From assembly GCA_030837345.1 (NCBI GenBank), contig JAUPKQ010000162.1:1-46274 (forward strand): 46,274 nucleotides of DNA. The letters run 5' to 3'. A program made the position numbers and the translations under genes. Below, piece after piece: positions 10,911 to 13,058 of the stretch (position 1 is the first letter of the stretch; every line of letters begins with the position of its first letter). Under the pieces are notes generated by a model. It made no database searches and was not told the DNA's origin. It was given only the letters and a program-made list of their open reading frames with translations. Origin of the DNA: Actinomycetota bacterium (lineage in GTDB: Bacteria > Actinomycetota > Actinomycetes > Actinomycetales > Kineosporiaceae).

Positions 10911-11150
10911 CCACAACCCTCCCCCGGGGTACGGAGTCACTCTCCACTCTCCTCCACCGTGCCGCAGCGGAGGTCATTTGACGTCGATTTCGGGGTTTTT
11001 GGGAGCGCTTACATCCTTCTCTTTACACTCTCTTCAGGTAAACGCGACACGGAAGTCCTACGGGGGGCGCGCCGGGGGAGCTCTGTGCCACCACCGCCTC
11101 TGACCTGCGACAACGCGATCCACTTCTGACCCAGGGGGGGTATTTCGCCG

Positions 11151-11180
11151 TTGACCGTGGGGGGAAGTGGAGTAGAGTGG
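11151..11180 (+). promoter_or_regulatory. mraZ promoter with three 10-bp-spaced MraZ-type boxes
   Basis: TTGACC (11151-11156) and TAGAGT (11173-11178) form a good sigma-A-type promoter with a 16-bp spacer. GTGG recurs at 11157, 11167 and 11177, exactly one helical turn apart and overlapping the spacer and -10 box. In E. coli, MraZ binds TGGGN repeats separated by 5 bp, so a 10-bp period is what an MraZ autoregulatory operator should show. The spacing is seen directly; binding is inferred. Confidence 0.6.
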
Positions 11181-11262
11181 AGCGCCCGGGGGATGGTGGT
11201 GTCGAGAGTGGTAATGCGATAGCTCTCGGCCCGGACTTCGGGGTGAGGGGAGGTTGCTGAGG

Positions 11263-11694
11263 GTGTTTCTCGGCACCTACACCCCTCGGCTGGACGACAA
11301 GGGACGGTTGATCGTTCCCGCTAAGTTCCGGGAGCAGCTCGAGGCAGGAGTGGTCGTGACAAGGGGGCAGGAGCGTTGTCTGTACGTGTTCCCGCTCGCC
11401 GAGTTCGAGCGCCTGACCGACCAGTTGCGCCAGGCGCCCGTGACGAGCAAGCAGGCGCGTGACTACCTGCGCGTGTTCCTCTCGGGAGCGAGCGACGAGT
11501 CCGTCGACAAGCAGGGCCGGGTGACCATTCCGCCCGCTCTGCGCACCTACGCGGGTCTTGACCGTGATGTCGCCGTCATCGGCGCCGGCCAGCGCGTGGA
11601 GATCTGGGACGCCGGTGCCTGGGAGGTCTACCTCACCGAGCAGGAGCAGGTGTTCGCGGAACAGGCGGAGGAGGTGGTCCCCGGTCTGTTCTGA
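11263..11694 (+). CDS. mraZ: transcriptional regulator MraZ
   Basis: A 143-residue protein with two AbrB/MraZ-like halves, each holding the DxxxR signature ([14 protein letters not shown] near the N terminus and [16 protein letters not shown] in the second half). MraZ forms a ring-shaped oligomer that binds repeats ahead of its own gene and represses or tunes the dcw operon. GTG 11263 ([11 protein letters not shown]) is chosen: GGGGAGG lies about 11 bases upstream, and the family normally begins MFLG. TTG 11254 would sit almost on the ribosome-binding site. It is the first gene of the dcw cluster and is followed by a 323-bp structured leader before rsmH. Confidence 0.95.
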
Positions 11695-11723
11695 CGGTCC
11701 GACGGGTCACCCGTCAGTCATCG

Positions 11724-11902
11724 CCGCGAGACGTTCTCGTGCCTGAGGGCACACGAACGGGTCTCGCGGGACGCAGCTTCACGAACAACCGCCGTCGGCG
11801 GTGAGGTCTCCAGCCGCTCGAAGCGTCCTGACATCCCTTCCCCGGCGTCAGGCCGCAACCGAGACGTCCGTCCTGACGCCACTTCCCCGGCGGCAGGCCG
11901 GA
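11724..11902 (+). promoter_or_regulatory. structured RNA leader between mraZ and rsmH (candidate mraW-type RNA motif)
   Basis: This sits in the 323-bp gap between mraZ and rsmH, which has no reading frame of its own. It contains (a) a long hairpin, CCGCGAGAC (11724-11732) pairing with GTCTCGCGG (11761-11769), with inner GTTC/GAAC and GTGCC/GGCAC helices; (b) ACCGCC-GTC-GGCGGT (11788-11802); and (c) two hairpins formed by a repeated 34-nt unit (11824-11857, 11869-11902). A conserved actinobacterial structure called the mraW RNA motif is known upstream of rsmH (mraW) genes. I recall its location but not its exact consensus, so the match is an inference from position and structure. Confidence 0.5.
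11824..11902 (+). repeat. 34-bp direct repeat, each copy a hairpin with shared CTTCCCCGGCG core
   Basis: Copies at 11824-11857 and 11869-11902 match at 29 of 34 positions by eye. Copy 1 folds as CCTGAC (11827-11832) with GTCAGG (11847-11852). Copy 2 folds as CCTG-a-CGCC (11872-11880) with GGCG-g-CAGG (11889-11897). Both keep CTTCCCCGGCG, while differing bases lie mainly in the stem and loop edges. A duplicated structured element is more likely than chance sequence. Confidence 0.6.
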
Positions 11903-12017
11903 GATAGTTCGGCCCGCGTCCGGCCCGTCCGGCGGGTCGGGGAGCGGATGGAGACCTGATCGCCGACGGCACCGTACCGGAGCAAGGTCGGATCGGGCCA
12001 GGGTCGAGAGGGTCGAA

Positions 12018-13058
12018 ATGGGAACCGTCGGGGAGCCGTGGGCCCGGCACATACCGGTTCTGCGGGACCGGTGCGTGACGTTGCTCGCACCAGCCCTCGG
12101 CGACGACGGTGCCGTCGTCGTCGACGGGACCCTCGGGATGGGCGGCCACGCCGAGGCGCTGCTCGAAGCCTGCCCTCGCGCCGAACTGGTCGGGATCGAC
12201 CGTGACCCCGCGGCCCTCGAACTCGCCGGACGGCGCCTCGCCCGCTTCGGGGGACGTGTCCACCTCGTGCACGCCGTCCACGACGACCTGCCCCGCGTGC
12301 TCGCCGACCTCCAGCTGTCCGGGGTCCAGGGGATCCTTCTCGACCTCGGGGTGTCCTCCCTCCAGCTGGACGAGCCCGGCCGCGGATTCGCCTACGCCGT
12401 CGACGCACCCCTGGACATGCGGATGGACCCGGGCGCCGGCGTGACGGCGGCGGAGATCCTCAACACCTACGGCGTCCGTGAGCTCACCCGCGTCCTGCGC
12501 GAGTACGGGGAGGAGCGGTTCGCCCGCCGTATCGCCGAGGCGGTCGTGCGGGAGCGGGACGCCCATCCGTTCACGACGAGCGCCAGGCTCGTCGACCTGG
12601 TGCGGGCCTGCATCCCGGCACCGGCCCGCCGCACCGGCGGCAATCCGGCCAAGCGCACCTTCCAGGCGCTGCGCATCGAGGTCAACGGGGAACTGGCGAC
12701 GCTCGAACGGGTCGTGCCGGCCGCCGTCGACGCCCTGACCGTCGGGGGACGGGTCGCCGTCCTCGCCTACCACTCGCTGGAGGACCGGATCGTCAAGCGC
12801 GTCCTCACCGCGGGGGCTCTGAGCACCACCCCGCCGGATCTGCCGGTCGAGCTGCCCGGACACGCCCCGTTCCTGCGCCTGCTGACCCGGGGGGCGGAGA
12901 CGGCGGCGGAACCGGAGATCGGGGAGAACCCCCGCGCGGCCTCCGTCCGCCTGCGTGCCGCCGAGCGGGTCCGCGCCGACGGGGAGAGCAACCGGGGGAA
13001 CCGCCGGGAGAGCACGCCTACGACCAGCCGTTCGCGCAGGAGAGGGGATGCCGCGTGA
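12018..13058 (+). CDS. rsmH: 16S rRNA (cytosine-1402 N4) methyltransferase RsmH
   Basis: A 346-residue RsmH (formerly MraW). The N terminus [17 protein letters not shown] is typical. The SAM motif is [17 protein letters not shown], then [20 protein letters not shown] and PLDMRMDP, both hallmark segments, and [13 protein letters not shown] and [13 protein letters not shown] near the C terminus. It methylates C1402 in the ribosomal P site. ATG 12018 follows GAGAGGG. Its stop overlaps the ftsL GTG (GTGA at 13055-13058). It is preceded by the repeated-hairpin leader, which may control it. The C-terminal 30 residues are low-complexity and basic. Confidence 0.95.

Follow-up and report, generated by a model that had tools for sequence, protein, structure and literature searches.

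A two-hairpin form of the mraW RNA upstream of rsmH in Kineosporiaceae and its recurrence among Actinomycetes

The gap between mraZ and rsmH in the window, by which we mean the whole 46,274-nt stretch of DNA analyzed here, almost certainly holds an mraW RNA (Rfam family RF01746), and in it the apical hairpin is doubled. The assignment is made because the CUUCCCC loop, the AGGUCUCCA/UGGAGACCU helix, and the position before rsmH all agree with that family and because sister loci with one hairpin score above the cut-off set by Rfam; the same agreement upholds the initial annotation, which had proposed an actinobacterial mraW RNA, perhaps doubled. New here are the helix that encloses both hairpins, the evidence on promoters, and the finding that the doubled form recurs, is conserved, and systematically scores below the Rfam cut-off. 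As a whole, the data are best explained, with a probability that we put at roughly 0.45, by a CUUCCCC loop that would dock a trans-acting factor at the mraZ-rsmH junction, the likeliest route being cleavage of the helix.

Architecture and identity of the element in the window

The intergenic gap extends over 323 nt from the mraZ stop at 11694 to the rsmH start at 12018, the length given in the initial annotation, and its features are collected in Table 1. Since the N-terminus of MraZ is conserved, the GTG at 11263 (MFLGTY...) is more likely to be the mraZ start than position 11254. The rsmH start codon lies 47 nt past the end of the basal helix, and no intrinsic terminator was found within the gap. 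Two coding alternatives were rejected: an N-terminal extension of rsmH across the gap, as no in-frame start occurs upstream of 12018 before a stop, and a small upstream open reading frame within the helix, which reads AUGGAGACCUGA in the window and whose AUG is missing in many relatives (GCGGAGGG..., GCGGUUGG...).

Table 1. Features of the mraZ-rsmH region, in positions of the window
Feature	Position	Strand	Details
Promoter TTGACC-N16-TAGAGT, 5' of mraZ	11151..11178	+	Sole promoter-like site in 11100-12100
Three GTGG boxes with 10-bp spacing (11157, 11167, 11177), presumed MraZ operator	11157..11182	+	Sequence reading
mraZ	11254..11694	+	Pfam PF02381, E 2.4e-38
mraW RNA element (RF01746), two-hairpin form	11791..11970	+	Fold z -6.34
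Basal helix, 5' strand	11791..11819	+	12 bp, G.G mismatch, AGGUCUCCA 9 bp, G.A mismatch, 6 bp
Apical hairpin 1	11823..11856	+	CUUCCCC at 11837-11843
Apical hairpin 2	11867..11902	+	CUUCCCC at 11882-11888
G+C-rich side arm	11919..11941	+	Side arms here differ among relatives
Basal helix, 3' strand	11942..11970	+	UGGAGACCU core
rsmH (mraW)	12018..13058	+	Pfam PF01795, E 2.6e-104; first gene 3' of element

The strongest signal is the enclosing helix, which the initial annotation had missed. Its arms form a 29-nt inverted repeat of 90% complementarity around both hairpins, giving a helix of about 27-28 bp with two mismatches in the window, and the sequence signature of this basal helix recurs in relatives. 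The enclosed region folds as one 180-nt RNA domain of -117.9 kcal/mol, with none of 200 shuffled sequences as stable (z-score in Table 1); for the fold of the whole gap z was -5.03. The two hairpins built from a direct repeat were correctly recognized at the outset, but the repeat measures 32 nt (11824-11855 and 11869-11900, 88% identity) rather than 34 nt. Both copies fold into hairpins with CUUCCCC in the loop, and their four differences, which shift one mismatch and turn a G.U pair into G-C, are not compensatory. The two copies alone therefore provide no evidence of covariation. A short perfect hairpin (11701-11715) and a long bulged one (11724-11769), also described initially, do exist in the gap, but the stretch that carries them folds barely better than shuffled sequence (z -1.67, 14 of 200 shuffles), and no counterpart of either was seen in relatives.

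Comparison with the Rfam mraW model, which the initial annotation had suggested, yielded a match to the right family at a score below its cut-off. At the gathering threshold, the Rfam scan of the window returned no match; the permissive scan matched RF01746 at 11817-11863 with 20.5 bits against a gathering cut-off of 50, and other families gave only weak chance matches in the gap. We attribute the low score to the second hairpin. Among single-hairpin loci of the same family, the whole RF01746 model is matched with 73.9 (L004), 60.7 (L087), and 53.5 bits (L085), and the basal arms of L085, L087, and L096 are nearly identical to those of the window, with which family members share a basal block of 9 bp (AGGUCUCCA/UGGAGACCU) flanked by the G.G and G.A mismatches. 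Three single-hairpin Mycobacteriaceae loci, mycobacterial and corynebacterial, score 62-78 bits. The window also shares with the published mraW RNA (Weinberg et al., 2010, PMC2864571) the place before rsmH/mraW in Actinomycetes, the GGYCUC/GRGACC block of the basal helix below the hairpin, and the apical CCUG-N-C...ACUUCCCC...CAGG hairpin. It differs in the number of hairpins: the single apical hairpin of the Rfam consensus is not matched, because CCUG...CUUCCCC...CAGG is present twice and is joined by a third, G+C-rich arm. The RF01746 cut-off is a detection threshold and not a structural feature, and the window counts as a variant of the family.

The stems covary strongly across relatives, a property for which the initial annotation had proposed an alignment of this gap as a check. 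In alignment A2, which comprises 21 single-hairpin relatives with helix and hairpin pairs assigned by hand, 90.8% of cells pair and 18 of the 29 pairs show two-sided changes; the covariation score of 0.455 was reached in none of 500 shuffles (0.170 when shuffled) and compares with at most 0.124 in slid controls. This result covers the single-hairpin relatives, and the second hairpin of the window lies outside that set. Opposite the conserved A of GGRGACC (11807 with 11954 in the window), 10 of the 21 relatives form a U-A pair and 10 carry an unpaired C, and the A side hardly ever changes to compensate. Because the opposite base is U or C about equally often, this A is probably kept for something other than pairing. 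The CUUCCCC loop is invariant in the seed alignment, and linker length and side arms vary among loci.

Recurrence of the doubled form and distribution among Actinomycetes

Among 162 fetched loci with both hairpin and helix, 132 have a single hairpin and 30 have two hairpins on one basal helix. The window is left out of this ratio on technical grounds, as are L151, L185, and L187, which fell below the helix threshold; the ratio is not a population frequency, many loci having been fetched for a long model match. Together with the window, the two-hairpin loci span about ten lineages, including Kineosporiaceae, several genera of Mycobacteriaceae, Ornithinimicrobium, Ornithinicoccus, Citricoccus, a Nanopelagicales metagenome-assembled genome, and further families. 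When mapped on a tree of RsmH from a subset of 89 loci, the state of one or two hairpins requires six changes, the number of gains being approximate given the weak support of deep branches, and the window is placed among single-hairpin relatives within Kineosporiaceae. With one exception (L182, 51.4 bits), the 12 two-hairpin loci scanned besides the window were below the RF01746 cut-off or unlisted. The doubled form thus mostly escapes the standard Rfam model, and RF01746 undercounts the family.

In three two-hairpin genera (21 sequences), none of 42 loop columns varied, compared with 139 of 432 other columns, which indicates that both loops are under selection. Members of these genera were picked by the length of their match to R1, the covariance model built from A2, and not by their loop; the 432 comparison columns include the conserved helix, and the contrast with freely evolving sequence would be larger.

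Of 216 genomes in the class, 180 gave an R1 match at E<=1, while 191 have MraZ and 208 have RsmH; sampled genomes of the other classes of the phylum gave no match. In Mycobacteriaceae the element was detected in 117 of 121 genomes. The R1 match lies just 5' of rsmH wherever coordinates were compared, and in the window the R1 alignment is confined to the 5' part of the element. Streptomyces have lost mraZ; in several of them rsmH is still preceded by the basal helix and by a promoter of the form TTGACC...TAAAGT, a pattern that links the element with rsmH and the rsmH operon and not with MraZ. The CUUCCCC loop is gone in most Streptomyces examined, with rsmH retained, and is kept in L128 and L008. 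In Glycomyces (L063, L067, L080) and one member of Microbacteriaceae (L075), the element is absent and mraZ and rsmH are spaced by just 23-44 nt. The loss of the loop in Streptomyces and of the whole element in Glycomyces implies that it is dispensable in some lineages.

Two further observations concern these upstream regions. Many of the Streptomyces rsmH upstream sequences L127-L143 carry a conserved C-rich stretch, CCTCCCCTTC, on the 3' side of the apical helix. In L034, L042, L039, and L008, extra CTTCCCC copies with no clear hairpin follow the element and precede the start codon of rsmH.

Promoter, predicted cotranscription, and published 5' ends

Strict matches to a promoter of the kind that precedes mraZ in the window were found before mraZ in 41 of 79 relatives (0.5 expected), and GTGG-N6-GTGG in 77 of 79. 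No promoter of the mraZ type occurred within the gap, before or after the element, in any of 74 relatives. With a conserved promoter before mraZ and none in the gaps, the element should belong to an mraZ-rsmH-fts-mur cotranscript, and it may control the whole downstream operon, as the initial annotation had proposed. Both in the window and in many Actinomycetes, the spacer of the promoter and its -10 element are overlapped by the presumed MraZ boxes. Separately, positions 11161-11173 of the MraZ operator and 11876-11888 of hairpin 2 are complementary over 13 nt, a match that is not conserved in relatives.

The initial annotation had raised the case of a transcription start 3' of the hairpins, which would leave them outside the rsmH message. 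The 74 promoterless gaps speak against it; the starts mapped in two Corynebacterium species counsel caution. In C. glutamicum, the rsmH mRNA start (2,266,932) falls within the 3' strand, at about position 90 of the 106-nt element (2,267,021-2,266,916), whereas most other Rfam leaders in the same table begin at or near the 5' end of their own element (PMC3890552). In C. diphtheriae, the mapped rsmH start lies downstream of the entire element (PMC5784534). The rsmH leader of M. tuberculosis gives rise to a strongly expressed RNA that yields bands of 60 and 30 nt, and this RNA was alone among eight mapped 5' ends in having no sigma-A -10 box (PMC3526491); this small RNA (1359) is placed in the rsmH leader only, not at base resolution relative to the element. 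Both Corynebacterium start maps (PMC3890552, PMC5784534) come from terminator-exonuclease libraries, which are expected to remove processed ends, and this counts against cleavage. The RNase III site reported for this C. glutamicum operon is in the mraZ coding region and not in the element (Maeda 2016), which also counts against it. In three Corynebacterium relatives, no TANNNT was found just before the equivalent point. 5' ends within a stable duplex can resist terminator exonuclease, and the 5'-end data fit a cleavage in the helix.

A precedent is UpsM of Rhodobacter sphaeroides (PMC5089854), a structured RNA in the 5' leader of the dcw (division and cell-wall) cluster that is liberated as a small RNA and undergoes cleavage. 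UpsM differs in that it precedes mraZ, has an intrinsic terminator, depends on RNase E for cleavage, and is restricted to Rhodobacteraceae; no likeness in sequence is claimed.

Possible modes of action

Because the linker and side arms vary freely while the loop is invariant and the hairpin has repeatedly been doubled, the CUUCCCC loop is probably an autonomous docking site for a putative trans-acting factor, most likely an RNA-binding protein, and doubling of the hairpin would make the site bivalent. To our knowledge, no factor that binds the mraW RNA is on record. The factor would act where the two cistrons meet, most likely through control over how an activity of the RNase III type cleaves the long helix; the cut would divide mraZ from the genes for cell wall and division and would determine both the 5' end of their mRNA and how stable it is. 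Cleavage as the output is a tentative proposal, to be held with some doubt. Equally tentative is a fuller version, in which an as yet undescribed RNA-binding protein that regulates the cell-wall and division operon of actinobacteria would recognize the hairpins; lineages would have tuned this site by repeated moves from one hairpin to two on a shared helix, and a dimeric factor would bind the two cooperatively and be coupled to cleavage between mraZ and rsmH. By analogy, the multivalent hairpin sites of the CsrA type also present a short invariant loop motif repeated on hairpins and often doubled, although there the motif is GGA and is bound by CsrA, whereas here it is CUUCCCC with a putative factor. 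Direct occlusion of the ribosome-binding site appears unlikely as a general mechanism, since the spacing of the helix and the rsmH start differs among loci, from 10 to 289 nt.

An unlikely alternative is autogenous control, in which RsmH would bind the hairpins of its own leader and repress its own translation or the operon. The element stands directly before rsmH in the matches compared, including those in Streptomyces without mraZ, most genomes have one site, and leader hairpins bound by the product of the downstream gene are common. Such binding has been proposed for the msiK RNA motif (RF01747), likewise an actinobacterial long-hairpin leader, which differs in its gene, in its conserved bulge, and in including the ribosome-binding site. 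However, rsmH also heads the whole cell-wall operon, so that adjacency is not specific to rsmH; the loop is not evidently like the RsmH target around C1402 of 16S rRNA; and Glycomyces has rsmH without the element.

We consider it quite improbable that the RNA alters RNA polymerase near the head of the operon for read-through, by processive antitermination or anti-pausing. Hairpin elements that recruit NusG-type factors exist, and the location after the first and before the second gene of a long operon, in a gap free of intrinsic terminators, recalls EAR in exopolysaccharide operons. Yet the gap matches no antitermination family in Rfam, the side arms vary in order and number, unlike those of EAR, and terminators that would need read-through are not in evidence.

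There is also a small chance that the element lies outside the rsmH message, with rsmH having a promoter of its own at the 3' side and the RNA being a 3' UTR of mraZ. The 5' ends mapped in or after the 3' strand in the two Corynebacterium species would agree with this, but the clear promoter stands before mraZ, none of the 74 loci has a promoter-like site after the element, and Streptomyces without mraZ retain the helix before rsmH.

Pairing of the C-rich loop with a G-rich partner, be it the Shine-Dalgarno sequence of mraZ or rsmH, the MraZ operator, or a small RNA acting in trans, is very unlikely. The window loop CCACUUCCCC is perfectly complementary over 10 nt to GGGGAAGTGG of the MraZ operator, and CUUCCCC could pair with the mraZ Shine-Dalgarno sequence GGGGAGG. 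Complementarity to the Shine-Dalgarno sequences shows no excess over shuffles, however (5.43 vs 5.24 for mraZ and 5.18 vs 5.08 for rsmH), and GGGGAAG occurs near mraZ in just 20 of 88 loci; the operator lies within the promoter spacer and is therefore not transcribed. Both pairings were rejected. A small-molecule riboswitch sensing a cell-wall precursor, suggested by the structured leader of a biosynthetic operon and by the name 'riboswitch' in some annotations, is likewise very unlikely, as invariance is limited to a single hairpin loop, the helix-hairpin junction varies and is often doubled with no fixed pocket apparent, and the variable helix-rsmH distance and lack of a terminator leave no expression platform.

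The mraW RNA has been on record since 2010 without an assigned function, and it heads the peptidoglycan and division operon in Mycobacterium, Corynebacterium, and most other Actinomycetes. Repeated doubling of the CUUCCCC hairpin alone marks the part that is being read and argues against a small-molecule pocket. RNAs with one loop, two loops, or a mutated loop would offer a simple bait for finding the factor proposed to dock there.
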